Assembly (NCBI RefSeq): GCF_021405525.1
Contig: NZ_JAGQAG010000001.1
Location: forward strand, 806,001 to 870,000
Origin: Ruegeria pomeroyi
GTDB taxonomy: Bacteria; Pseudomonadota; Alphaproteobacteria; Rhodobacterales; Rhodobacteraceae
Reading direction: 5' to 3'
DNA: 64,000 nt
Shown here: piece by piece, positions 30,082 through 43,129 of the stretch
How positions within the stretch are numbered: the first letter of the stretch is position 1
Layout of the letters: the number at the start of each line of letters is the position of its first letter
Notes under the pieces: model-generated
The model's database searches: none
What the model saw: only the letters and a program-made list of their open reading frames with translations
What the model was told of the DNA's origin: nothing
Position numbers and translations under genes: made by a program

Positions 30082-31359
30082 ATGTCGGACAATACCCGCA
30101 ACCTCTGGCATCTGACCTCGGCTGAGCAGGTCACCGCGCCGCCGCTGGCGGGGGATGTCACCGCCGATCTGGTGTTGATCGGTGGCGGCTATACGGGCCT
30201 GTCGGCGGCGCTTCATGCCGCGGAGCAGGGCGCCGATGTACGGCTGGTCGAGGCCGAGATGCCGGGCCATGGCGGCTCGGGCCGCAATGTCGGACTGGCC
30301 AATGCGGGCCTGTGGCTGCCGCCCGACGATATCCGCGCCCATCTGGGCAACGGGGCGGGCGACCGGTTGATCGCGCTGCTGGCCGGGGCGCCGGGAATGG
30401 TGTTCGATCTGATCGACCGGCACGGTATCGCCTGCGAGCCGGTGCGGGGCGGTACGCTGCATTGCGCGCATTCCCTCTCGGGCCTCGCCGATCTGAAACG
30501 CCGCCACGCGCAACTGACCGCCAGCGGCGCGCCTGTCGAACTGCTCTCGGCCGCAGAGACCGCGCGCCGTACCGGGTCGGCCGCGTTTCACGGCGCGCTC
30601 TTTGATCCGCGCGCGGGCACCATCCAGCCGCTGGCCTATGCCTGCGGGCTGGCCCGTGCCGCGCAGGCGGCGGGGGCGCAGCTGCACGGGCAAAGTCCGG
30701 CGCTGGAGGTGGAACATTATGACGGGGTCTGGCAGGTGCGCACGCCCGGTGGCAGCATCCGCGCGGGCAAGCTGATCCAGGCCACCAACGCCTATCACCG
30801 GGGGGTGGCCCGACGAAAGCCTGCCCATGTGCCAGTGCACTATTTCCAATATGCTACCGATCCGCTGCCCGCCGAGATCCGTGCCGCGATCCTGCCGGGC
30901 GGCGAGGGGTGTTGGGATACCGGGTTGATCATGACCTCGTTCCGGCTGGACCGGGCGGGGCGGATGATCATCGGCGGCATGGGGGCGCTGGACCATCCGG
31001 CCAGCGGCATCCACCGGGCCTGGGTGCGGCGCAAGCTTGCGCAGCTCTATCCAGCCTTGTCAGGGCAACCGCTGGTCACCGGCTGGCATGGGCGCATCGC
31101 GATGACCGGCGATCACATCCCCAAGATCACCCGCCCCGGCCCCGGCGCGCTGGCGGCGCATGGCTATTCCGGGCGCGGCATCGGGCCGGGAACCCTGTTC
31201 GGCAAGGCCATGGCCGAGGCGCTGCTGAGTGGTGACGAAACCAACCTGCCGATCCCCGCCATCGACAACCATGCCGAGCGCTGGACCGCCCTGCAACAGG
31301 CCTATGTGGAAACCGGCGCCACGCTGATGCACCTGATCCGGGCGCGCGTGGGCTACTGA
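30082..31359 (+). CDS. FAD-dependent oxidoreductase (DAO family, PuuB-like)
   Basis: The 425-residue protein has an internal Rossmann motif VLIGGGYTGLSAALHAAEQG at residues 33-52, preceded by a 30-residue leader with LWHLTSAEQVTAPPL, which resembles gamma-glutamylputrescine oxidase and related enzymes. The C-terminus carries HGYSGRGIGPGTLFGKAMAE, the FAD-closing segment. It follows the malonyltransferase-fold gene by 43 bp and meets the convergent LysR gene with a 7-bp overlap. Probable amine oxidation; the substrate is unknown. Confidence 0.82.
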   Translation: MSDNTRNLWHLTSAEQVTAPPLAGDVTADLVLIGGGYTGLSAALHAAEQGADVRLVEAEMPGHGGSGRNVGLANAGLWLPPDDIRAHLGNGAGDRLIALLAGAPGMVFDLIDRHGIACEPVRGGTLHCAHSLSGLADLKRRHAQLTASGAPVELLSAAETARRTGSAAFHGALFDPRAGTIQPLAYACGLARAAQAAGAQLHGQSPALEVEHYDGVWQVRTPGGSIRAGKLIQATNAYHRGVARRKPAHVPVHYFQYATDPLPAEIRAAILPGGEGCWDTGLIMTSFRLDRAGRMIIGGMGALDHPASGIHRAWVRRKLAQLYPALSGQPLVTGWHGRIAMTGDHIPKITRPGPGALAAHGYSGRGIGPGTLFGKAMAEALLSGDETNLPIPAIDNHAERWTALQQAYVETGATLMHLIRARVGY

Positions 31360-32264
31360 GCGCCGCGTTGCAGCCGGGCGGCGATTGCCTCGACCCGGGC
31401 GCGCAGCCAGCGATGGGCCGGATCGGCGGTCGAGCGTTCGTGCCAGACCATGTAGATCGACACCGGATCGCAGGCAAAGGGCAGCGGCGCGCAATCCAGC
31501 GCCGCCAGCGGCCCCAGCTTCATCAGCGTGGTATCGGTCGAGATCAGGTCGCTGCCTTTGACAAAGGCGGGGATGGCGCCGAAATGTGGTAAAATCACCG
31601 TGGGTGGGCGTATCTGGCTTTGATCCACGCCGCGCATCACCACATTGGCGCTGCGTCCGTCGCTGAATCGCACCTCGACATGTTCGGCGGCACAATAGCT
31701 CTGCCAGCTGTCGGGCGGGCTGCGATGACTGGCGTCATAGTAGATTTGCAACGGGCTGGTGAACAGGTGCCGCTGATAGATATCGGGCCCATCCGGCGGC
31801 AGCGGCGTCAGCACCAGCTGGCAGCGGTCGCTGCGCAACAGGGCCGGATCGGGCACGCCCGAGGGGACGAAGCCAAGGCTCAGCCGTACTCCTTCGGAGC
31901 GGGCGCGGTGCAACAGTTCGGGAAAGATCAGCTCGCGTTGCAGGTCGTTGGCGGCGATGTCGAAATGCATCGCTTCGCCCAGCGGGTCAAAGGGGCGGGC
32001 ATCGGTCAGCGACTTGATCCCGTCCAGCACCCGCTGCACCGGTTCGCGTAGCGACAGTGCCCGTTCGGTGGGCGTCAACCCCTGGCCCGATCGTACGAAC
32101 AGCGGATCACCCAGCACCGCGCGCAGCTTGGCCAGCGTATGGCTGACCGCCGATTGGGTGACGCCCAGCCGGTCGGCCGCGCGCGAGACCGAGCTTTCTT
32201 CGAGGATGACCAGAAAGCAGCGCAGCACCTTGCCATCGAGATCGGTGAAATCGAATTTGTTCAT
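31353..32264 (-). CDS. LysR-family regulator divergent from the reductive dehalogenase
   Basis: The 303-residue protein has the helix-turn-helix SSVSRAADRLGVTQSAVSHT and the NodD/NahR-like opening LDGKVLRCFLVILEESSVSR. NahR- and NodD-like LysR proteins often sense aromatic compounds. The start codon faces the dehalogenase gene with 75 bp between starts, and an inverted repeat TTCATG-n15-CATGAA covers its own start. Control of the dehalogenase by an aromatic ligand is the natural reading, but inferred. Confidence 0.88.
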   Translation of the reverse strand: MNKFDFTDLDGKVLRCFLVILEESSVSRAADRLGVTQSAVSHTLAKLRAVLGDPLFVRSGQGLTPTERALSLREPVQRVLDGIKSLTDARPFDPLGEAMHFDIAANDLQRELIFPELLHRARSEGVRLSLGFVPSGVPDPALLRSDRCQLVLTPLPPDGPDIYQRHLFTSPLQIYYDASHRSPPDSWQSYCAAEHVEVRFSDGRSANVVMRGVDQSQIRPPTVILPHFGAIPAFVKGSDLISTDTTLMKLGPLAALDCAPLPFACDPVSIYMVWHERSTADPAHRWLRARVEAIAARLQRGAQ

Positions 32265-32286
32265 GAGATTTATGACTAAACATGAA
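32260..32286. promoter_or_regulatory. Candidate LysR binding site
   Basis: The arms TTCATG (32260-32265) and CATGAA (32281-32286) are separated by 15 bp between the divergent LysR and dehalogenase genes. The left arm includes the LysR start codon. It is a LysR-type spaced dyad; the assignment is by position only. Confidence 0.45.
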
Positions 32287-32339
32287 TGGTTTTACTGTCC
32301 ATTCCACGTTACGCCGGATGGGCATTCAGGAGGCGCCGG

Positions 32340-35300
32340 ATGGGTATTCGCTTTTTCTCGGACCGCGATAGGCCCGTTCATATGGGTCCCTATCCGCTGG
32401 AGCGGCTCGCCCGGCGCGATGGCGCCGCGGATCTGGCTGGCGTTCCGCAAATGCCTGTGCTCAGCTTTCACCGGCCCGAGCAGCCCGAGAGCATCGTCAA
32501 CGCGATGGGCGAGTTTCAGGCGATGCTGGATGCGATCCGCGACGGGCTGGTCAACCCGGCCCGCGCCGAGATCCCTTCCGATCCCCAGGAGCGCGCCAAC
32601 CATCTGAAAGCGTTTGGGTATTTCAATGACGCCTCGATGATGGGTTGCGGACCCTTGCCGGCCGGGGCGCTGTTGCCGGCACCCCGACGCAACCCCGATA
32701 TCGACCGGCTGGCCGAGGCGCTGCGGACCCGGCAGACCAAGACGCTGGCCTCGGGTATCGACGTGATCATGGCCGACCTCAAGGAGAGCATGGAGGCGCC
32801 GCCACGCCCGATCGAGGGGCACCGGCACGCGATTGTCTTTCTCTACGAACATCACCGCGACCCCGAGGCGGACGAACTGGGAACAGAGTGGATAAGGGAC
32901 GCGCAGGACCATCGTGCCTGTCTGCTTGCCAGCGAAAACGCGGTGGTGATCGCCAATTACATCCGCCTTCTGGGCTATGACGCGCGGGCGCATACCGCCA
33001 TGTCAAGCGATGTCGATCTGGGGCGGCTGGCGCTGGCGGCGGGGCTGGTGACGCTTGAGGGCGGGCAACTGGCCGCGCCCTGGCTGGGGCGCCGTTTTGG
33101 CCTGGCCGCCGTCACCACCGAAATGGAACTGGCCCACGACCGCCCCTTGACGCCACTGGCCGCGCAGTCCTGGGCCGCCACACGCGGCCCGGCCTGGTGG
33201 CTGGGCAAGGGGTTCGCCAAAAGCGGGCTGAACCGCGACCCCTATGCCCGGCGGCGCTATGTGGACGGGGCACACCCGTTCGAGCGGCTGCACCGGGTCG
33301 AGACGCCCACCACCTATATCGACGAGGCCAATGTGGCCCGTGTGCCCAAATGCGCCGACATGTTCGCCCGCGCCCAGTTCGGCGATATGGGCAAGGCCCT
33401 GCAAGAGGGGGCCAAGGGCGGTCACTATGTGCGCAAGGCGGCGCCCAGCTTTGCCCAGCGGCGGGCGCTGGGGGCGTTCGTCTTGCTTCAGGATGGCGAC
33501 AGCGCCGATGTGCCCCGCCCGGTCGATCCGCGCCGCAATGCCGCCAACCTCAAGGCGGCGAGCTATTTCCTGGGCATCGACGCCGTCGGCCTCAGCCGCT
33601 GCCCGACCTGGACCTGGTACAGCCATGACGCCACCGGCGAGGCAATTACCCCGCCGCATGATCAGGCGATCAGCATGATCGTCGATCAGGGCTATGAGAC
33701 GATGGAAGGGTCGAGCGGCGACGACTGGATCGCGGTGGCGCAATCCATGCGCGCTTACTTGCGCTTTTCGCTGTTGGGGGGTGTGATCGCGCAGCAGATC
33801 CGCAATCTGGGTTACAAGGCCAAGGCCCATACGGTGATGGATGGCGAGGTATTGCAACCGCCGCTCCTGCTGCTGTCGGGCCTGGGCGAGGTCAGCCGCA
33901 TCGGCGAAGTGATCCTGAACCCGTTCCTGGGCCCGCGCCTGAAATCGGGGGCGGTGACCACCGACATGCCGATGAGCCATGACAAGCCCATCGACTTTGG
34001 TCTGCAACGGTTCTGCGAGGCCTGCAACAAATGCGCCCGCGAATGCCCCTCGGGGGCGATCACCGCCGGGCCCAAGCGGATGTTCAACGGCTACGAGATC
34101 TGGAAATCCGACAGTCAGAAATGCGCCACCTATCGCATCACCACCCAGGGAGGCGCCATGTGCGGGCGCTGCATGAAGACCTGCCCGTGGAACCTCGAAG
34201 GGTTGTTTGCCGAACGCCCCTTTCGCTGGGCTGCGATGACGATCCCGGCGGCGGCCCCGGCGCTGGCGCGGCTCGACGATGCGCTGGGTCATGGCGGGCT
34301 GAACGAGGTCAAGAGATGGTGGTGGGATATCGAGTTGCAGCCCGATGGCGCCTATCGCCCGACCGCCGGGCCAGTGAACCGGCGTGACCTGCAACGGGAT
34401 CTGGACCTGAAATATGAGGATCAGACGCTGGCCGTCTATCCCGCGCCGCTGGCGCCGCATCCCTGGCCCTATCCGTTTCCGATGGACCGTGAGGCGGGGA
34501 TCGCCGCCTATCAGGCGATGATCAGCGCCGACGAATACCGGGCGCGGCTGGCATCTGGCGACCGGTCGATGGTGCATCGTTATACCGTACCCGATGCGGA
34601 CAGTGCGCCAGTGATCCGGGTCGAGGTGACGCGGGCCGAGAAGATGACGGCTGAGATCACCAAATACGAGTTTGCTGCCCCAGACGGCGCGCCGCTGCCC
34701 GAATGGACGGCGGGCGCGCATCTGGATGTGCTGGTCGCGCCCGAGTTCCTGCGTCAGTATTCGATGTCGGGCGACCCGGAGGATCGCGCCACCTATCAGA
34801 TCGGGGTGCTGCGCGAGGATGCGGGGCGGGGCGGCTCAAGGCTGATGCATCGCATCTTTACGCCGGGCCGGCGGGTATTCATCTCGAAACCGATCAATCA
34901 CTTCGAACTGGAGGAGCGCGCGACGCGCACATTCCTGATGGGCGGCGGCATCGGCATCACCCCGATGATCGCCTTTGCCCACCGCTTGCACGCGCTGGGG
35001 GCCGACTTCGAGCTGCATTATTCCGTCCCCAGCCGCGCCAGCGCCGGATATCTCGAGGATCTTGGCGCGATGCCCTGGGCCCATCATGTGCAGTTGCATG
35101 TCTCGGATGAGGGGTCGCGCGCCGATCTGGATACGGTTCTGGCGGGGTATCGGCCCGGCTGGCACGTTTATACCTGCGGTCCCGAGCGCTATATAGATGG
35201 GGTGATGCAGGCTGCCGAACGACAAGGCTTCCCCGAAGAGGCGCGGCATCTGGAATACTTCTCGGTCCCCGAACAGCCCGCGTATGAAAACCACCCCTTT

Positions 35301-35558
35301 ACGCTGAAACTCACCCAGTCAGGGCGCGAGATCACTGTGCCCGCGGATCAGGACGCGGCGCAGGTGTTGAACGCGAGCGGGATCCCTATCGACGTGAAAT
35401 GTTCGGACGGGATCTGCGGCGTCTGCAAATGCGGGTTGATCGCGGGCGCGGTCGAACATCGCGATTTCGTGCTGTCAAGGAAACAGCGCGAGAGCGCGAT
35501 CATCCTCTGCCAATCCCGCGCGGCAGAACCGGGCGGGGTGGTCGAGATCGACCCGTAG
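32340..35558 (+). CDS. rdhA: Self-sufficient cobalamin-dependent reductive dehalogenase fused to an NAD(P)H reductase (NpRdhA/BhbA type)
   Basis: 1072 residues; ATG 32340 follows aggagg. Residues 158-280 and 430-550 look like two copies of the cobalamin-binding fold. Iron-sulfur motifs: C559-x2-C562-x2-C565-x3-C569-P, then C595, C608-x2-C611-x3-C615-P. From about 745 a phthalate-dioxygenase-reductase-like module follows: RQYSMSG (FMN), MGGGIGITPMIAFAH (NAD) and a plant-type [2Fe-2S] site C1021/C1026/C1029/C1057. S469, Y473, K535 and R599 have exactly the spacing of the catalytic S422/Y426/K488/R552 that I recall for Nitratireductor NpRdhA. That enzyme uses B12 to debrominate ortho-halophenols in the cytoplasm. 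No Tat signal and no RdhB anchor are present, so this is catabolic, not respiratory. Divergent LysR regulator. Epoxyqueuosine reductase is excluded by length and fusion. Confidence 0.93.
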   Translation: MGIRFFSDRDRPVHMGPYPLERLARRDGAADLAGVPQMPVLSFHRPEQPESIVNAMGEFQAMLDAIRDGLVNPARAEIPSDPQERANHLKAFGYFNDASMMGCGPLPAGALLPAPRRNPDIDRLAEALRTRQTKTLASGIDVIMADLKESMEAPPRPIEGHRHAIVFLYEHHRDPEADELGTEWIRDAQDHRACLLASENAVVIANYIRLLGYDARAHTAMSSDVDLGRLALAAGLVTLEGGQLAAPWLGRRFGLAAVTTEMELAHDRPLTPLAAQSWAATRGPAWWLGKGFAKSGLNRDPYARRRYVDGAHPFERLHRVETPTTYIDEANVARVPKCADMFARAQFGDMGKALQEGAKGGHYVRKAAPSFAQRRALGAFVLLQDGDSADVPRPVDPRRNAANLKAASYFLGIDAVGLSRCPTWTWYSHDATGEAITPPHDQAISMIVDQGYETMEGSSGDDWIAVAQSMRAYLRFSLLGGVIAQQIRNLGYKAKAHTVMDGEVLQPPLLLLSGLGEVSRIGEVILNPFLGPRLKSGAVTTDMPMSHDKPIDFGLQRFCEACNKCARECPSGAITAGPKRMFNGYEIWKSDSQKCATYRITTQGGAMCGRCMKTCPWNLEGLFAERPFRWAAMTIPAAAPALARLDDALGHGGLNEVKRWWWDIELQPDGAYRPTAGPVNRRDLQRDLDLKYEDQTLAVYPAPLAPHPWPYPFPMDREAGIAAYQAMISADEYRARLASGDRSMVHRYTVPDADSAPVIRVEVTRAEKMTAEITKYEFAAPDGAPLPEWTAGAHLDVLVAPEFLRQYSMSGDPEDRATYQIGVLREDAGRGGSRLMHRIFTPGRRVFISKPINHFELEERATRTFLMGGGIGITPMIAFAHRLHALGADFELHYSVPSRASAGYLEDLGAMPWAHHVQLHVSDEGSRADLDTVLAGYRPGWHVYTCGPERYIDGVMQAAERQGFPEEARHLEYFSVPEQPAYENHPFTLKLTQSGREITVPADQDAAQVLNASGIPIDVKCSDGICGVCKCGLIAGAVEHRDFVLSRKQRESAIILCQSRAAEPGGVVEIDP

Positions 35559-35567
35559 GCTTGCGGC

Positions 35568-36596
35568 CTATGCGCGCGGTGGCCCCAGCGAGCCGCGCAG
35601 AACGACGCGGGTATCCAGTCGCTGCCCCTGTCCCGGCGTGCCCTCTGACACCATCGAGATCAGGGCACGCGCAGCGCGGGTACCCATCTGTCGATGTGGA
35701 ACATGCACGGTGGTCAGGCCCGGGCTGCACACCTTGGCCAGTTCGATATCGTCAAAGCCGGTGATCGAGACATCGCCCGGCACGTCATATCCCATCTCCT
35801 TGGCCCGTCCCATGGCGCCGACAGCCAGCACGTCATTGCCGCACATCACAACGGTCGGGCGGGGCGTACGCTGCATCAGGGCCTCGAACGCGGCGGCGCC
35901 CTCGTCGATGCCATAGGCGGTTTCCACAAGGCTCAGCGCGTCGGGGTCCAGTCCCGCCTCGTCCATGGCCGCGCGGATTGCGGCCACCCGGGCGCGGGCG
36001 CGGTCGTTGCCCGCCTGTTCGGCGCTGATCACGCCGATATGGCGATGGCCGTCCGCGATCACCCGTCGGGCAAGGTCCAGCATTGCGGAATGGTTGTCGA
36101 ACCCGATCGTGGGCACCGGCGCATTCGGGTCGTGGACCCAGGCCACGAGGGTCGGAATGCCGCGCCGGTTGAGAAAGTCGTAGAGCGCCGGATCGCGATG
36201 GGCGCCGATCAGGAACAACCCGTCGGCGCCGCGCGCCACCAGGGTGCGAATCTGCTCCTCCTCCAGATCGGCGCGATATGAAGAGGAGGCCACCAGCAAC
36301 GTGATCCCCTTCAGCCGCAACTCCTCCTGAAAGGCCTGAAGACCTCGGGCAAAGATCGCGTTCTCCATGGTCGGGATCACGGCGCCGATGGTGTTGGTGC
36401 GTTTCGCGGCCAGGGCGCGGGCACCGAAATTGGGCGAATACCCAAGGTCGCGCACCGCCTGCAAAACCCGGTTGCGGGTCTCCTCGATGACCCGGTCGGG
36501 CGTGTTCAGACAGCGCGAAACCGTTGCCGTCGACACGCCCGCGCGCCGGGCCACATCGGCCAGGGTCGGGGTGCGTTCGGTTGGCGGCGCGGTCAT
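35568..36596 (-). CDS. LacI-family transcriptional regulator of the DHPS cluster
   Basis: About 342 residues from ATG 36596; ATG 36611 is an alternative and the frame is open to 36659. It has the LacI headpiece (LADVARRAGVSTATVSRCLN) with the hinge YSPNFGARALAAKRT and a periplasmic-binding-like effector domain (VPGDVSITGFDDIELAKVCS). Two matching palindromic operators lie between it and the divergent DHPS/TRAP operon. Repression relieved by DHPS or a catabolite is the likely logic. Confidence 0.92.
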   Translation of the reverse strand: MTAPPTERTPTLADVARRAGVSTATVSRCLNTPDRVIEETRNRVLQAVRDLGYSPNFGARALAAKRTNTIGAVIPTMENAIFARGLQAFQEELRLKGITLLVASSSYRADLEEEQIRTLVARGADGLFLIGAHRDPALYDFLNRRGIPTLVAWVHDPNAPVPTIGFDNHSAMLDLARRVIADGHRHIGVISAEQAGNDRARARVAAIRAAMDEAGLDPDALSLVETAYGIDEGAAAFEALMQRTPRPTVVMCGNDVLAVGAMGRAKEMGYDVPGDVSITGFDDIELAKVCSPGLTTVHVPHRQMGTRAARALISMVSEGTPGQGQRLDTRVVLRGSLGPPRA

Positions 36597-36663
36597 GCTG
36601 AGCGGTTCCATCGGGTTGAGGGCGGTAGGGTCCGATATCCCATCCGCTGGGAACAGCATAGCG

Positions 36664-36700
36664 TGTAAGCGCTTGCATCGTCAAATGTAAGCGCTTACAT
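36664..36700. promoter_or_regulatory. Tandem LacI-type operators over the DHPS operon promoter
   Basis: The palindromes TGTAAGCGCTTGCA (36664-36677) and ATGTAAGCGCTTACAT (36685-36700, perfect) lie 22 bp apart centre to centre, two helical turns. They carry the central CG-flanked AAGCGCTT typical of LacI/GalR operators. A possible promoter TTGCAT (36674-36679), 16 bp, TACATT (36696-36701) is embedded in them, so binding would block transcription. Confidence 0.85.
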
Positions 36701-36740
36701 TGCTAGGGCGAATCGTGTTTTTGCCCATCCGGAGGACCCG

Positions 36741-36929
36741 ATGCTTTTGATCTCGGCCGCACTCTTTGCCCTGTTTGCCCTGAATGTGGGCCTTGGCTCT
36801 GTCGGGGTCGGGCCGATGCTGGGGGATGTTGGTGAAATGCTGGTTCTGTTCGCCGCTGCAATCGCGTTTGTGGTGGCCATTCTGCAACGGGAAGCCGCAG
36901 CGAAGAGCAAGACAAACCAGCGGCCCTGA
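36741..36929 (+). CDS. Small membrane protein at the head of the DHPS/TRAP operon
   Basis: The 62-residue protein starts at ATG 36741 with a strong ggagg ribosome-binding site. It has two hydrophobic segments (residues 2-25 and 31-48) and a short basic C-terminus REAAAKSKTNQRP. It lies directly behind the operators and 23 bp before the TRAP binding-protein gene. I do not recognise a family; a role with the transporter or in membrane assembly is a guess from position. Confidence 0.7.
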   Translation: MLLISAALFALFALNVGLGSVGVGPMLGDVGEMLVLFAAAIAFVVAILQREAAAKSKTNQRP

Positions 36930-36952
36930 TCTGTCCAAATGGGAGGAAATAC

Positions 36953-38098
36953 ATGAAAGACGACCGGACCGGACTTGCGTCCGCGACACGCCGCAACTTT
37001 CTGAAACTGGCCGGCAGCGGCAGCTTTACCGCCGCCATGGTGGCCGGCGCGGCGGGGACCCTGTGGTCGACCGAGGCCGCAGCGCAGACCGCCAAGGAAG
37101 AGAAGGAACGTGAAGCCGCCGCATCGCATGTGATGACGGTGGCGACGGCCTATGTGCTGGGCGCGTCACGCAGCTATCCGATCATGCAGCTGGACCTCAA
37201 GGAGAACATCCAGAACGCCACCAACGGCAAGGTCTATGTGAAACTGGCGCCGGGCGGCCAGCTGGGCGCCGGTGGCGCGCTGGTGCAAAAGGTGCAGGGC
37301 GGCACCATCCAGGCGGCGCAGCATTCGCTGTCGAATTTCGCCCCCTTCGCCAGCGCAGTCGACCTGATCAACATGCCGTATTTCTGCGGCTCGAACCAGC
37401 GGTTCACCAACCTCGTGTCGTCGGATGCCTGGAAGTCCGAGGTGCATCCCAAGGTCGAGGCTGCGGGCTTCAAGGCGCTGTTCTATATCGTGATCGACCC
37501 GCGCGTCGTGGCCGTGCGCAAGGGTGGCAACGCGGTGATCACGCCGGGCGATCTGGCAGGGGTCAAGTTCCGCGTGCCGGGCTCGAAGATGCTGCAACAG
37601 TATTACCGCATGGTCGGCGCCAACCCGACGCCGGTGGCCTGGGGCGAGACGCCCTCGGCGATCAAGCAGGGCGTGGCCGATGCGCTCGACCCGTCGGTCG
37701 GCGCGCTTTATGTCTTTGGCTTCAAGGACATCCTCAGCCATGTGACCTTTACCCAGGCGGTGCCCGACAGCCAGGTGTTCTCGATGAACCTGGAATGGTT
37801 CAACGGGCTTCCGGCAGACGTGCAGGAAGGCATCATGTTCGCGGGCGAGGTCACCTCGCAGCAGAACCTGGCCAAGGTGCCCGCCGCGCGTGCCTATGCG
37901 ATGTCGGAACTGACCAAATCCGGGGTCGAGTTCCATTCGCTGTCCGCCGACCAACTGGCCGAATGGCAGGCGACCGGCGGTTATCAGCGCTCGGAATGGG
38001 ACAGCTTCAAGACCGAACTGGCCGGGTCGATGGATGCCTTTGCCCGCCTCGAAGAGGCCGCCGGCACCATGGGCCGCTATTACGTGCACGACGCCTGA
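36953..38098 (+). CDS. hpsK: TRAP transporter substrate-binding protein (DctP family), Tat-exported
   Basis: The 381-residue protein has a twin-arginine signal TRRNFLKLAGSGSFTAAMV and a cleavage region near AAAQT. The mature part is a TRAP/DctP solute receptor (MQLDLKENIQNATNGKVYVK; GDLAGVKFRVPGSKMLQQYY contains the conserved carboxylate-binding Arg region). It is followed by dctQ- and dctM-type genes and then the DHPS dehydrogenases, so 2,3-dihydroxypropane-1-sulfonate is the expected ligand. The hpsK symbol follows my recollection of the Ruegeria naming. A strong hairpin after the stop would keep this subunit in excess over the membrane parts. Confidence 0.88.
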   Translation: MKDDRTGLASATRRNFLKLAGSGSFTAAMVAGAAGTLWSTEAAAQTAKEEKEREAAASHVMTVATAYVLGASRSYPIMQLDLKENIQNATNGKVYVKLAPGGQLGAGGALVQKVQGGTIQAAQHSLSNFAPFASAVDLINMPYFCGSNQRFTNLVSSDAWKSEVHPKVEAAGFKALFYIVIDPRVVAVRKGGNAVITPGDLAGVKFRVPGSKMLQQYYRMVGANPTPVAWGETPSAIKQGVADALDPSVGALYVFGFKDILSHVTFTQAVPDSQVFSMNLEWFNGLPADVQEGIMFAGEVTSQQNLAKVPAARAYAMSELTKSGVEFHSLSADQLAEWQATGGYQRSEWDSFKTELAGSMDAFARLEEAAGTMGRYYVHDA

Positions 38099-38107
38099 TC
38101 GGGCACT

Positions 38108-38140
38108 GGCCGGCGCCTGGGACGGCGCCGGCCCTTTCCT
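38108..38140 (+). terminator. Intra-operon attenuator after the binding-protein gene
   Basis: A 10-bp GC-rich perfect stem, GGCCGGCGCC (38108-38117) with GGCGCCGGCC (38124-38133), loop TGGGAC, is followed by CTTTCCTT. This is a typical partial terminator or 3' stabiliser between a binding-protein gene and its permease genes. Confidence 0.75.
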
Positions 38141-38205
38141 TACCCGCATGACGCCATCAACCGGGCCTCCGGCAACGGATGCCCCTCGCCCGGAGGGAGG
38201 GACGC

Positions 38206-38721
38206 GTGAGCCTTATCCTGAATGCCCTGAACCGGAATGCCGAGCGCTGGGCGCTCCTGGTGTTCTACGTGATGCTTGTCGTCACCATGGCCATCGAGGT
38301 GCTGCGGCGCGAGATCTTCGCCTATTCCTCGATCTGGGGAGAGGAGATCGTGCGCTATTCCTTCATCTACCTCGCCTGGATCGGCGCCGCCTCGGCGGTG
38401 AAGGAACGGGGCCATATCCGCATCGACGTGCTGATGCATTACCTGGGCCGCCGGGCCAAGGCGCTGCTCTATATCTTTGGCGATCTGGTGATGTTCGTGG
38501 TGGCGGTCATCGCGCTGTACTGGTCGTTCGAAACGGTGCTGGTCTCGGCCAAGTTCGGATCGGTCAGTCACGGCCTGCGCATCTCGATGGTGTGGTTCCT
38601 GATGGCGGTGCCGGTGGGCTTTTCGCTGATGATCCTGCGACTGGTGCAATCCTTCCTGCGCGATTTGCGCAGCCTTCGTGACGGCACGCCCGTCTACGAG
38701 GGCGACAAACTGTTCGATTGA
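38206..38721 (+). CDS. hpsL: TRAP transporter small permease (DctQ family)
   Basis: 171 residues from GTG 38206, chosen over ATG 38179 because ggaggg lies at the right distance. It has four hydrophobic helices and the conserved DctQ features WGEEIVRYSFIYLAWIGAA and KERGHIRIDVL. It forms the membrane complex with the DctM subunit encoded 10 bp downstream. Confidence 0.9.
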   Translation: MSLILNALNRNAERWALLVFYVMLVVTMAIEVLRREIFAYSSIWGEEIVRYSFIYLAWIGAASAVKERGHIRIDVLMHYLGRRAKALLYIFGDLVMFVVAVIALYWSFETVLVSAKFGSVSHGLRISMVWFLMAVPVGFSLMILRLVQSFLRDLRSLRDGTPVYEGDKLFD

Positions 38722-38731
38722 GAGGGCGGTC

Positions 38732-40060
38732 ATGCTTTGGAACACCCTCAATCAGACGGTTGAACTGGGCTGGGATTTCTACCTGCCGGTGATCCTGTTC
38801 GTGGGCCTCATCGCGCTGGCGGTGCCGGTCTGGGCCGCCATCGGGGCGGCGGCGATCACCATGTTGATCATGTCGGGGGACATGCCGCTGAGCGCGGTGG
38901 GCGAGAGCCTGTTCACCGGCATCGACGCCTTTGCGCTGACAGCGGTGCCGCTGTTCATCCTGACCGGTGACGTGCTGGTGCGCACGGGGCTTTCGCGCAA
39001 GTTCCTGGACGTGGCCGAGGCGCTGACGCAATTCGCCAAGGGCGGGTTCGGCTCGGCCACGGTGCTGGTCTGCGGCATGTTTGCGGCCATCTCGGGTTCG
39101 GACGCTGCGGGGGCCGCCGCCGTGGGCCGGATGACCATCGACCGGCTGGTCGAGTCGGGCTATCCCCGGCCCTATGCCTGTGCGCTGGTGGCGGCGGGGG
39201 CCTGTACCGGCATCCTGATCCCGCCTTCGATCGCCTATATCATCATCGGTCTGGTGCTGGGTATCTCGGCCTCGACCCTGTTTCTGGCCGCGCTCATTCC
39301 GGGCCTGTGCATCCTGATCTCGATCCTGGTCACCAATGTGGTGATGAACCGCATCAACGGCTGGGAGGGCGGCGGCAATATCTCGGCCGCCGAATACGTG
39401 GGCAATCTGGGCCGGGCGCTGAAATCCGGCTGGTATGCCTTCATCGTGCCGGGGATCATCTTTTACGGCATCTTCTCGGGCCGGCTGACGCCGACCGAGG
39501 CGGGTGCCACCGCTGTTGTCGTCACCATCCTGATGGGCTTCATCCTGCGCACCCTGTCGCTGTCCGACTTCCCGGCGATGCTGGTCAGCTCGGCCAAGGT
39601 GAACGGGGTTATCCTGCCGATCATCGCCTTTTCCGCCCCCCTGGCCGAGGCGCTGGCGATCATGGGCGTGCCGCAGGGATTTGTCGCCGCAGTCACCGGC
39701 ATGACCGAAGAACCCTGGCTGTTGATCCTGCTGATGATCGGCATCCTGATCGCGGCGGGCTGCGTCATGGAGACGACGCCCAATATCGTGATCCTGGCCC
39801 CGATCCTGAAGCCGCTGGCCGACAATATCGGCATGAACGAGATCCAGTTCTGCATCATGATGATCACCGCGCTGGGTGTGGGCTTCATCACGCCGCCGCT
39901 GGGGCTGAACCTGTTCGTGGTCTCCGGCATCACCGGCGAGTCGATCCTCAAGATCGCCGCCCGCGCTGTTCCCTTCGTCTTGTTCATGCTGCTGGTGGTG
40001 CTGCTCATCGCCTATCTGCCCGCCATTTCCACCACGCTCTTGCCCGATATCTACAAATAG
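38732..40060 (+). CDS. hpsM: TRAP transporter large permease (DctM family)
   Basis: The 442-residue protein has about twelve hydrophobic segments and DctM hallmarks: PLFILTGDVLVRTGLSRKFL, ISGSDAAGAAAVG, LIPPSIAYIIIG, GCVMETTPNIVILAPILKPL and GFITPPLGLNLFVVSGI. It forms the Na+-coupled translocation pathway of the TRAP system. It is 12 bp ahead of hpsN, so uptake and the first oxidation are co-expressed. Confidence 0.93.
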   Translation: MLWNTLNQTVELGWDFYLPVILFVGLIALAVPVWAAIGAAAITMLIMSGDMPLSAVGESLFTGIDAFALTAVPLFILTGDVLVRTGLSRKFLDVAEALTQFAKGGFGSATVLVCGMFAAISGSDAAGAAAVGRMTIDRLVESGYPRPYACALVAAGACTGILIPPSIAYIIIGLVLGISASTLFLAALIPGLCILISILVTNVVMNRINGWEGGGNISAAEYVGNLGRALKSGWYAFIVPGIIFYGIFSGRLTPTEAGATAVVVTILMGFILRTLSLSDFPAMLVSSAKVNGVILPIIAFSAPLAEALAIMGVPQGFVAAVTGMTEEPWLLILLMIGILIAAGCVMETTPNIVILAPILKPLADNIGMNEIQFCIMMITALGVGFITPPLGLNLFVVSGITGESILKIAARAVPFVLFMLLVVLLIAYLPAISTTLLPDIYK

Positions 40061-40072
40061 GACGCCCCCGGT

Positions 40073-41380
40073 ATGACCATCGAATACCTCAAGAAAGCTT
40101 CGCTTACCTCGAAATCCGATGCCTCGGACGTGCAAGAGACGGTGCGCGCGATCCTCGCCGATATCGAGGCGGGCGGGGATCAGGTCGCGCTGGACTATGC
40201 CGCCAAGTTCGACCGCTACGAGGGCAGCATCATCCTGTCGCCCGCAGAGATCGAGGCCGCCTGCGCGCTGGTGCCGGAAAAGCTCAAGGCCGATATCCGC
40301 TTTGCCCATGACAATGTGCGCCGCTTTGCCGAGACGCAGAAGGCGACGCTGACCGATGTCGAGCTCGAGGTGGTGCCGGGCGTGATCACCGGACAAAAGG
40401 CGATCCCGGTGGACGCGGCGGGCTGCTATGTGCCCGGCGGGCGCTATAGCCATATTGCCAGCGCCATCATGACCGTGACCACGGCCAAGGTGGCGGGGTG
40501 CAAACATATCATGGCCTGCTCGCCGCCGCGTCCCGGTGTCGGCGTGGCGCCTGCCATCGTTTATGCCGCCCATATCTGTGGCGCCGACACGATCATGGCA
40601 ATCGGCGGTGTGCAGGGGGTGGCGGCCATGGCCTTTGGCCTGTTTGGCCTGCCCAAGGCGAAAATCCTGGTTGGTCCCGGCAACCAGTTCGTGGCCGAGG
40701 CCAAGCGGATGCTGTTCGGGCGTGTCGGCATCGACATGATCGCGGGCCCCACCGACAGCCTGATCCTGGCCGACAAGACCGCCGATCCGCATATCGTGAC
40801 CACCGATCTGGTGAGCCAGGCCGAGCATGGCTACAACTCGCCCGTCTGGCTGGTGACCGATGATCGCGCGCTGGCGGAAAAGGTGATCGAGATGATCCCG
40901 GCCTATATCGCCGACCTGCCCGAGGTGAACCGCGACAATGCCGCCGCCGCGTGGCGCGATTATGCCGAGGTGATCCTGTGCGCCGACCGCGAGGAGATGG
41001 CTGCCACCTCGGACCGTTACGCGCCCGAGCACCTGACGGTGATGGCCGACGACCTGGATTGGTGGCTCGACCGGCTCAGCTGTTATGGATCGTTGTTCCT
41101 GGGCGAAGAAAGCACCGTCAGCTATGGCGACAAGGCGGCGGGCACCAACCACGTGCTGCCGACAAGCGGCGCCGCCAGCTATACCGGGGGCCTCAGCGTG
41201 CACAAATACATGAAGATCGTGACCTGGCAGCGTGGCACCCGCGAGGGCTACAAGCCCGTGGCCGAGGCCACCGCCCGCATCGCCCGGCTTGAGGGGATGG
41301 AGGGCCATGCCCGCGCCGCCGATGTGCGGCTGGCCAAGTATTTCCCCGACGAGACCTTTGACCTGACCGCCAATGGCTGA
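40073..41380 (+). CDS. hpsN: Sulfopropanediol 3-dehydrogenase (DHPS 3-dehydrogenase), HisD family
   Basis: The 435-residue protein is a histidinol-dehydrogenase-family enzyme with the zinc-binding DLVSQAEHGYNSPVWLV and the segment LPTSGAASYTGGLSVHKYM. HpsN oxidises (R)-DHPS with NAD in two steps to (R)-sulfolactate. It follows a TRAP transporter and precedes two further dehydrogenases, the hps order, and no other histidine biosynthesis gene is near, so a role in histidine synthesis is unlikely. It overlaps hpsO by 8 bp. Confidence 0.9.
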   Translation: MTIEYLKKASLTSKSDASDVQETVRAILADIEAGGDQVALDYAAKFDRYEGSIILSPAEIEAACALVPEKLKADIRFAHDNVRRFAETQKATLTDVELEVVPGVITGQKAIPVDAAGCYVPGGRYSHIASAIMTVTTAKVAGCKHIMACSPPRPGVGVAPAIVYAAHICGADTIMAIGGVQGVAAMAFGLFGLPKAKILVGPGNQFVAEAKRMLFGRVGIDMIAGPTDSLILADKTADPHIVTTDLVSQAEHGYNSPVWLVTDDRALAEKVIEMIPAYIADLPEVNRDNAAAAWRDYAEVILCADREEMAATSDRYAPEHLTVMADDLDWWLDRLSCYGSLFLGEESTVSYGDKAAGTNHVLPTSGAASYTGGLSVHKYMKIVTWQRGTREGYKPVAEATARIARLEGMEGHARAADVRLAKYFPDETFDLTANG

Positions 41381-42134
41381 CTCTGGCTATCTCTTCTCGG
41401 TGCGGGGCCGGGTGGCCTGTGTCACCGGCGCCAGTTCCGGCCTTGGCCGGCGCGCGGCGACGGTGCTGGCGCAGGCTGGCGCACGGGTGGTGGGCGTGGC
41501 CCGGCGCGCCGATGCGCTGGCCGAATGGCAGGCCGAGGCGGGGAGCGAAACCCATGCCATTCCCTATGACCTGTCGGACCGCGACGGGTTGGAGGGGCTG
41601 GCGCACCAGGTCGCAGCGCCCTTTGGCCCGCCCGACATTCTGATTCACGCCGCCGGCATCAACACCCGCCAGCCCGCCGATGAGGTCACGCCCGAAGGCT
41701 GGGACATCACCCTGACCCTGAACCTGTCGGTGCCGTTCTTCCTCAGCCAGTATCTGGTCCCGGGGATGAAGGCGCGCGGCTGGGGCCGGATCGTCAATTT
41801 CGCCTCGCTCCAGACAACCCGGGCCTTTCCCGGCGGCATCGCCTATGGCGCGTCCAAGGGCGGTGTGGCCCAGATGACCCGCGCCATGGCCGAGGCCTGG
41901 TCTCCGCACGGAATTACCGCCAACGCGCTGGGGCCGGGTTTTTTCCGGACCGAGCTGACGGCGCCTGTCTTTGCCGATCCCGCGCGCGCGGCGCGCAACG
42001 CGGCGCAGACCTGTCTCGGCCGCAATGGAGAGCCCGAGGATCTGGACGGGCCGTTGTTGTTCCTTTGCTCCGAGGCGTCGGCCTATGTCACCGGTCAGGT
42101 GCTGATGGTGGATGGAGGATATACCGCGAAATGA
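41373..42134 (+). CDS. hpsO: Short-chain dehydrogenase, probable DHPS 2-dehydrogenase
   Basis: The 253-residue classical SDR has the cofactor motif VTGASSGLGRRAATVLAQAG, the NAG-equivalent HAAGINTRQ, catalytic Ser in NFASLQTTR and YxxxK in IAYGASKGGVAQM. In the published DHPS pathway two dehydrogenases (HpsO and HpsP) interconvert the enantiomers through the 2-oxo compound so that HpsN receives the R form. It is coupled to neighbours on both sides (8-bp overlap with hpsN, ATGA with hpsP). Confidence 0.87.
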   Translation: MADSGYLFSVRGRVACVTGASSGLGRRAATVLAQAGARVVGVARRADALAEWQAEAGSETHAIPYDLSDRDGLEGLAHQVAAPFGPPDILIHAAGINTRQPADEVTPEGWDITLTLNLSVPFFLSQYLVPGMKARGWGRIVNFASLQTTRAFPGGIAYGASKGGVAQMTRAMAEAWSPHGITANALGPGFFRTELTAPVFADPARAARNAAQTCLGRNGEPEDLDGPLLFLCSEASAYVTGQVLMVDGGYTAK

Positions 42135-43129
42135 AGGCGCTGGTTTACACGGGCCCCGAAACGCTTGCGCTGCGCGAGATGCCCAACCCGGTCGCGGGGC
42201 CGGGCGAACAGCTGATCCGCATCGCGCAGGTGGGGATCTGCGGCTCGGACATGCATGCCTATCTGGGCCACGATGCGCGCCGCCCGGCGCCGCTGATCCT
42301 GGGTCACGAGGTGGCCGGTGTGATCGTGGGTGGGCCGCGCGACGGCGAGCGGGTCACCGTGAACCCTCTGGTCACTTGCGGCGACTGCCCGGCCTGCCGC
42401 ACGGGACGCGACAACCTGTGCCCCGCCCGCCAGATCATCTCGATGCCCCCGCGCGAGGGCGGCTTTGCCGAATATGTGGCGATGCCCGAGGGCAATCTGG
42501 TCACTGTCCCCGACCCCGTCCCGCTGGCCAAGGCGGCACTGGCCGAACCCATCGCCTGCGGCTGGCACACGGTGCGCCTGTCCCTGGCCGCGCTATCCGG
42601 TGCGCGTGACACGGCGCTGGTACTGGGAGGCGGGGCGATCGGGCTGGGCGCCGCACTCTGCCTGGCGGCGCAGGGCGTACCGCAGGTCACCGTGGTCGAG
42701 CCGAACCCCGCCCGCCGCGCCTATCTGGGCGACCGCTGCGGCCAGCATGCGGTCGATGCTGCGCCAGAGGGGTCGCAATTCGATCTGGTGATCGACGGGG
42801 TGGGCTATGCCGCCACCCGCGCCGCTGCCTCGGCCCATGTGCGCCCCGGCGGTGTGATCGGCCATATCGGCCTGGGCGAGGATACCGGTGGCCTCGATAT
42901 CCGGCGGATGACCCTGCAAGAGATCACCTTTATCGGGACCTATACCTATACCGCCGAGGATTTCCGCCAGACCGCGCAGGCAATCTTTGACGGCCGCCTC
43001 GGCCCGCTTGACTGGACCGAGGCGCGCCGGCTGGAACAGGGTGCCGAGGCCTTTGCCGATATCCGCGCGGGCCGGGTGGCGGCACCCAAGGTCCTGCTGG
43101 TTCCCGACACCGACCCGGAAAGGAGTTAG
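42131..43129 (+). CDS. hpsP: Zinc-type medium-chain dehydrogenase, probable DHPS 2-dehydrogenase
   Basis: 332 residues. It has the catalytic zinc site (VGICGSDMHAYLGHD, then GHEVAGVIVG), four structural-zinc cysteines in CGDCPACRTGRDNLC, and the Rossmann motif ALVLGGGAIGLGAALCLAAQ. Its start overlaps the hpsO stop by ATGA. It is paired with HpsO as the second DHPS C2 dehydrogenase of the racemising step. The final codons lie 3 bp before the universal-stress gene. Confidence 0.87.
   Translation: MKALVYTGPETLALREMPNPVAGPGEQLIRIAQVGICGSDMHAYLGHDARRPAPLILGHEVAGVIVGGPRDGERVTVNPLVTCGDCPACRTGRDNLCPARQIISMPPREGGFAEYVAMPEGNLVTVPDPVPLAKAALAEPIACGWHTVRLSLAALSGARDTALVLGGGAIGLGAALCLAAQGVPQVTVVEPNPARRAYLGDRCGQHAVDAAPEGSQFDLVIDGVGYAATRAAASAHVRPGGVIGHIGLGEDTGGLDIRRMTLQEITFIGTYTYTAEDFRQTAQAIFDGRLGPLDWTEARRLEQGAEAFADIRAGRVAAPKVLLVPDTDPERS

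Follow-up and report, generated by a model that had tools for sequence, protein, structure and literature searches.

Organization of the rdhA locus

The analyzed stretch, referred to below as the window, is 64,000 nt of Ruegeria pomeroyi DNA (GCF_021405525.1, contig NZ_JAGQAG010000001.1, positions 806,001 to 870,000 of the forward strand). It carries rdhA, which encodes a fusion of a reductive dehalogenase with a phthalate-dioxygenase-reductase-like module (RdhA-PDOR) at 32340..35558 on the forward strand. The genes flanking rdhA are not catabolic but encode two regulators, a divergent LysR-family protein on the reverse strand (31353..32264; Pfam HTH_1 and LysR_substrate) and a LacI regulator, at distances of 75 and 9 bases, respectively.

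The open frame of rdhA extends from 32286 to 35558 and comprises 1090 aa, of which 1072 aa are encoded from the ATG at 32340. The start was placed at this ATG because AGGAGG precedes it at a spacing of 6 bases and because the upstream extension contains a stop at its ninth codon in 33 of the 36 aligned LysR-rdhA intergenic regions (window counted). The window is one of the three regions lacking that stop, and the start given in a first-pass annotation of this DNA was correct.

Domain architecture of RdhA

In phmmer searches, the N-terminal two thirds of the protein matched NpRdhA (E = 7.6e-160) and the C-terminal third matched phthalate dioxygenase reductase 2PIA (E = 9.3e-55), while the reductive dehalogenase model TIGR02486 of NCBIfam scored 196.2 bits (cut-off 160.35). 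These matches greatly exceed what chance would give and bear out the earlier view that a B12 core and a flavin/NAD(P)/[2Fe-2S] reductase are joined in one chain. The active cobalamin domain and the domain with two [4Fe-4S] clusters were located at 33510..34379 (about residues 391-680, limits approximate) by TIGR02486 and the alignment to NpRdhA, and the flavin, NAD(P) and [2Fe-2S] module at 34611..35528 by the match to 2PIA, all on the forward strand. The reductase module also matched the P450-reductase fusions 6LAA and 6KBH.

The two [4Fe-4S] motifs (34014..34184; cysteine alignment and Pfam Fer4_16) have the ligands C559, C562, C565 and C569, and C595, C608, C611 and C615, at the residues annotated before (C559-C569 and C595-C615), and all eight cysteines are in register with those of NpRdhA. 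The [2Fe-2S] motif (35400..35510; Pfam Fer2 and alignment) consists of C1021, C1026, C1029 and C1057. Self-alignment of the protein to its core domain revealed a vestigial duplicate of the cobalamin-binding domain at 32520..33209 on the same strand (about residues 61-290), which is 39% identical to the core cobalamin domain over 112 aa (E 2.5e-19) and carries D, C and G at the positions facing the catalytic S, Y and K. Such a vestigial duplicate of the B12 domain is a hallmark of catabolic RdhAs. It had been overlooked in the first-pass annotation.

The absence of a Tat signal and of an RdhB or respiratory context had also been proposed. Inspection by eye of the N-terminus (MGIRFFSDRDRPVHMGPYPLE) showed nothing Tat-like, and no RdhB gene directly flanks rdhA, since the LysR and LacI genes leave no space for one; the proposal on the respiratory context holds for these directly flanking genes. 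As judged from its sequence, the window protein has the architecture of a self-sufficient catabolic RdhA (RdhA-PDOR), with the core, the clusters, the duplicate, the fused PDOR and the S/Y/K/R residues all in place.

Catalytic residues and pocket walls

The window protein was aligned with the best 80 of 483 matching genome stretches and with five plasmid loci, taken from the eight plasmid records that have a single place covering at least 80% of the query, and NpRdhA (584 residues) was added to the resulting 86 sequences. The set leans to near relatives; in a subset of 43 sequences, all were at least 73% identical to the window protein save BhbA and the Nitratireductor sp. OM-1 enzyme (51%) and an Aminobacter sequence (59%).

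S469 and Y473 (33744..33758), K535 (33942..33944) and R599 (34134..34136) aligned with S422, Y426, K488 and R552 of NpRdhA, with equal spacings of 4, 62 and 126 residues around the Tyr. The correspondence put forward in the first-pass annotation was thereby confirmed, the four residues lining up with those of the NpRdhA cobalamin pocket. The NpRdhA numbering was verified on the NpRdhA sequence and against the available text of PMC7565698, according to which the hydroxyl of the bound substrate in NpRdhA complexes lies by S422, K488 and R552, and its halogen by Y426. In the alignment that includes the best 80 of 483, S469, M470, Y473, K535, R599 and F342 were invariant in 86 of 86 sequences, and so were all twelve cluster cysteines (eight [4Fe-4S] and four [2Fe-2S]).

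The pocket walls differed from those of NpRdhA at five sites, at which the window protein has M for F290, Y for F310, V for P311, V for A419 and V for N452. Among the 86 aligned sequences (best 80 of 483 included), the A419 site was occupied by V in 84 and S in 2, the N452 site by V in 84 and A in 2, the F310 site by Y in 84 and S in 2, the F290 site by M in 80, L in 4 and F in 2, and the P311 site by V in 54 and A in 32. Both exceptions at the A419, N452 and F310 sites (S, A and S) were BhbA and the OM-1 enzyme. In NpRdhA, A419 lines the second-halogen site, and the A419M variant shifts relative activity toward a mono-bromo substrate (PMC7565698, available text). Since the walls are unlike those of NpRdhA at all five sites and unlike those of BhbA at four of them, the substrates of these two enzymes are not simply transferable to the window protein.

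The AlphaFold model of the window protein, built from 38 rather similar sequences, was of moderate confidence overall (mean pLDDT 67.7), with values below 50 in the active-site stretches 452-463, 499-533 and 588-601; it was used for the fold only, and the pocket was judged from the sequence alignment. The 14 best PDB hits of the model in Foldseek were all NpRdhA chains (38-40% identity, target-normalised TM 0.82-0.84).

Comparison with known enzymes

Any novelty implied by the first-pass annotation was overstated: a protein of this architecture had already been produced, assayed and put to use for growth in 2023 (PMC10463259). In the accessible portion of that paper, JtRdhA of the marine bacterium Jhaorihella thermophila (WP_104007082) is self-sufficient, NADPH-dependent and active in air; it turns over bromo- and iodophenols, among them 3,5-dibromo-4-hydroxybenzoate and 3-bromo-4-hydroxyphenylacetate, and none of the chloro and fluoro compounds tested. 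By the paper's description rather than by sequence alignment, it is likened to the window protein as an RdhA-PDOR fusion from a marine bacterium, and the residues reported as kept in it (NpRdhA F291, S422, M423, Y426, K488 and R552; PMC10463259, same portion) are likewise present in the window protein. JtRdhA has been assayed, whereas the window protein is known from sequence alone.

The legend of figure 1 (a tree) in PMC10463259, as far as the accessible text goes, names RdhA of R. pomeroyi DSS-3 (AAV93904) and others as homologues, and AAV93904 is probably the orthologue of the window protein. A same-genus genome encodes a protein 94% identical to the window RdhA, with the same adjoining LysR. 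Homologues of bhbA are described as widespread across the Roseobacter clade in the available part of PMC13101508; together with the characterization of JtRdhA in 2023, this means that the window RdhA is not new in kind. Literature on Ruegeria, on debromination of bromophenol, bromotyrosine and tribromophenol, and on Rhodobacteraceae seawater metagenomes yielded no expression or activity data for the window RdhA, and none on its gene beyond PMC10463259 and PMC13101508; in the accessible text of PMC5643483, a reductive dehalogenase is named solely among the cited references.

BhbA (Comamonas sp. 7D-2 plasmid pBHB, WP_015585978) has the same architecture, 51% identity and the same catalytic and cluster residues as the window protein, but F/S/S/A at NpRdhA positions 290/310/419/452, where the window protein has M/Y/V/V. 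Its gene adjoins protocatechuate 4,5-dioxygenase genes on pBHB, whereas the window rdhA adjoins regulators; the related locus of Nitratireductor sp. OM-1 carries pobA and an extradiol dioxygenase gene. NpRdhA (Nitratireductor pacificus; 4RAS, 6ZXU and 6ZXX) has F/F/A/N at the same positions and no reductase module, and the RdhA part of the window protein is 44% identical to it over 584 compared residues.

The LysR regulator and the intergenic block

In 36 of the 86 loci (window counted; best 80 of 483 included), rdhA has a divergent LysR orthologue, 73-83% identical to the window LysR, at a distance of 73-77 bp. It was not found in the remaining 50 loci, of which four (L040, L048, L053 and L079) reach about 1 kb or less upstream. 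All five genomes found for the genus of the window, its own counted, have rdhA with the adjoining LysR gene.

Alignment of the 36 LysR-rdhA intergenic regions revealed a conserved block at 32271..32302, with a consensus of about TATGAttA.tCATGAATGG.TTTgctGTccAt. Averaged in blocks of ten, columns 31-70 had 1.29-1.68 bits per column, compared with 1.46-1.66 bits in columns 1-30, which are LysR codons, and 0.47 bits in the spacer at columns 81-90. The block fits a putative LysR operator plus promoter, although the 36 aligned regions are closely related. The earlier suggestion of a divergent LysR was thus strengthened by the adjoining orthologues and by the block between both genes, and this LysR probably controls the transcription of rdhA. 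The first-pass annotation had also taken it for a possible halophenol sensor.

Neighbourhood of rdhA

Downstream of rdhA, the window region 35568-43129 contains the LacI regulator gene and TRAP transporter genes, followed by HisD-like, SDR and zinc-alcohol-dehydrogenase-like genes. It resembles the Ruegeria hps cluster for dihydroxypropanesulfonate breakdown, and is apparently separate from rdhA.

In 35 of the 86 loci (best 80 of 483 included; e.g. L012, L016 and L031), a molybdenum hydroxylase operon was detected downstream of rdhA, at 600 bp or less in 32; its FAD and Mo subunits were identified by profile scan, and its [2Fe-2S] and MoaD-like genes by eye. As a candidate partner of rdhA it was rejected: the operon is absent from the window, and the genome encodes a 91% identical large subunit elsewhere, on contig C4. 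We therefore make no claim of a functional link. Relatives of PobA and LigAB lie near rdhA in only 2 of the 86 loci (best 80 of 483 included), L119 and L116, which are the query sources, and synteny therefore leaves the substrate of the marine clade unfixed.

Two further neighbours were observed. In eight loci, mostly of Shimia (L042, L044, L045, L046, L049, L051, L054 and L057), the gene immediately upstream of rdhA has the same orientation and belongs to the fumarylacetoacetate-hydrolase family (family scanned on the L057 copy). Genes of one cluster lie directly downstream of rdhA in L061, L062, L069 and L119 (Ahrensia, Oricola and Nitratireductor), the L062 copy matching Pfam DUF1932.

Distribution in the family and related genes in the host genome

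Matches to RdhA at E <= 1e-60 were found in 167 of the 394 sampled genomes of the family, 149 of them at E = 0 (own genome counted), and a few of these 149 were partial or contained stops. The other 18 had E values from 2.1e-143 to 8.5e-62, and some of them probably represent just the reductase module, or fragments. RdhA-PDOR is common in its bacterial family, and the window gene is a well-preserved, ordinary member. This supports aerobic debromination by a B12 enzyme as a common trait of the family rather than an exception confined to polluted or anoxic places.

The own genome also encodes a second reductive dehalogenase of 394 aa without a reductase module (G000:C1:2478781-2479965; L002:1000-2184). 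It is followed, in the same orientation, by what is presumably a pirin gene, judging by its appearance. This dehalogenase was matched at E <= 1e-60 in 54 of the 394 genomes, 37 of which also have RdhA-PDOR at E = 0, compared with 20.4 expected (Fisher p 8.5e-7, a value that ignores relatedness). Its motifs, CDICTACADACP (at 287) and CAICMRVCP (at 341), are almost the same as those of Ros_A3X954 of Roseobacter sp. MED193, CDICTKCADACP (at 283) and CAICMRVCP (at 337), the comparison being one of Fe-S motifs. In the available text of PMC13101508, Ros_A3X954 is a marine debrominase and highly oxygen-sensitive; unlike the window RdhA, it is nowhere described there with a fused reductase, and its Fe-S motifs lie at 283-345. 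A third, RDH-like protein (G000:C1:51829-52815; L003:1102-2088; 328 aa) scored 98 bits with TIGR02486 (cut-off 160) and 43 bits with QueG (cut-off 200).

For B12 synthesis, CobN and BluB scored above their cut-offs in the own genome, CobN being matched in two pieces, the second of which includes one TGA (frame of 1100 aa). For aromatic catabolism, PobA, PcaH and HmgA did so; both PobA copies were full-scoring (G000:C2:84842-86008 and G000:C4:150867-152033), and PobA and PcaH are on contigs other than that of rdhA.

Proposed function of RdhA

The window RdhA is very likely an RdhA-PDOR enzyme that works in the cytoplasm as a self-sufficient reductive debrominase, probably tolerates oxygen and acts on ortho-bromo or ortho-iodo phenolic acids. 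Electrons would pass from NAD(P)H to the flavin of the C-terminal module and on through the [2Fe-2S] and the two [4Fe-4S] clusters to the cobalamin. S469, K535 and R599 would grip the phenolate of the substrate and position one ortho-halogen over the cobalt, and Y473 would donate a proton, completing a reductive cleavage to the dehalogenated phenol and halide. The likeliest natural substrates would be compounds of this class such as 3-bromo- or 3,5-dibromo-4-hydroxybenzoate and 3-bromo-4-hydroxyphenylacetate, whose debrominated products may enter 4-hydroxybenzoate/protocatechuate or related catabolism. Sequence, residues, domains and synteny were observed directly, as was the presence of B12-synthesis and aromatic-catabolism genes in the own genome, and we infer the substrate, oxygen tolerance, inducer and downstream route. 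According to the available text of PMC10463259 and PMC7565698, the chemistry has been demonstrated for JtRdhA and NpRdhA, NADPH use for JtRdhA and the pocket roles for NpRdhA. The ortho-halophenol-like substrate first proposed is supported by homology to these assayed enzymes, but it calls for refinement, given that the chloro and fluoro compounds tested with JtRdhA were not turned over and that the pocket walls differ. Against the proposed function stand the regulators, in place of catabolic genes, on either side of rdhA and the location of PobA and PcaH on other contigs.

A respiratory dehalogenase, as membership in the RDH family TIGR02486 could suggest, is extremely improbable and is already contradicted by the predicted architecture, with its fused NAD(P)H reductase, its vestigial domain, an N-terminus without Tat-like features by eye and no space for an adjoining RdhB gene. 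The enzyme might instead serve to dehalogenate toxic bromophenols that the cells encounter on algae, without a growth benefit. Such detoxification would agree with neighbours that differ between genera and with the lack of a single catabolic operon across the 86 loci (best 80 of 483 included), but we regard it as unlikely, because the BhbA and OM-1 relatives are surrounded by aromatic catabolism genes and Escherichia coli W with JtRdhA grew on 3-bromo-4-hydroxyphenylacetate (PMC10463259, accessible portion).

A further, somewhat doubtful possibility is that, with the chemistry unchanged, the enzyme acts in the cell on a halogenated phenol derived from tyrosine, for instance 3-bromo-4-hydroxyphenylacetate, and not on free bromophenols or bromobenzoates; the pocket walls of the marine clade would then be altered to suit such a substrate. 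The V/V/Y set at the A419, N452 and F310 sites in 84 of 86 sequences (best 80 of 483 included), against S/A/S in BhbA and OM-1, points in this direction. HmgA is encoded in the own genome but has an ordinary role in tyrosine breakdown anyway, and no tyrosine-pathway gene was recognized among the neighbours of rdhA. In the accessible part of PMC10463259, the rate of JtRdhA with 3-bromo-4-hydroxyphenylacetate is 99% of the best, but by kcat/KM the enzyme favours dibromo- over monobromo-4-hydroxybenzoate.

Returning to the debrominase of ortho-bromo or ortho-iodo phenolic acids, we tentatively suggest that debromination by the marine RdhA-PDOR clade may be a near-housekeeping function. The clade would have a pocket type of its own (V, V and Y at the A419, N452 and F310 sites) that suits natural bromophenolics of the sea, for example catabolites of bromotyrosine, and would be served in the Ruegeria group by a dedicated LysR sensor, alongside the independent second reductive dehalogenase. 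The enzyme, the regulator and the operator-like block form a testable set in a culturable marine group.
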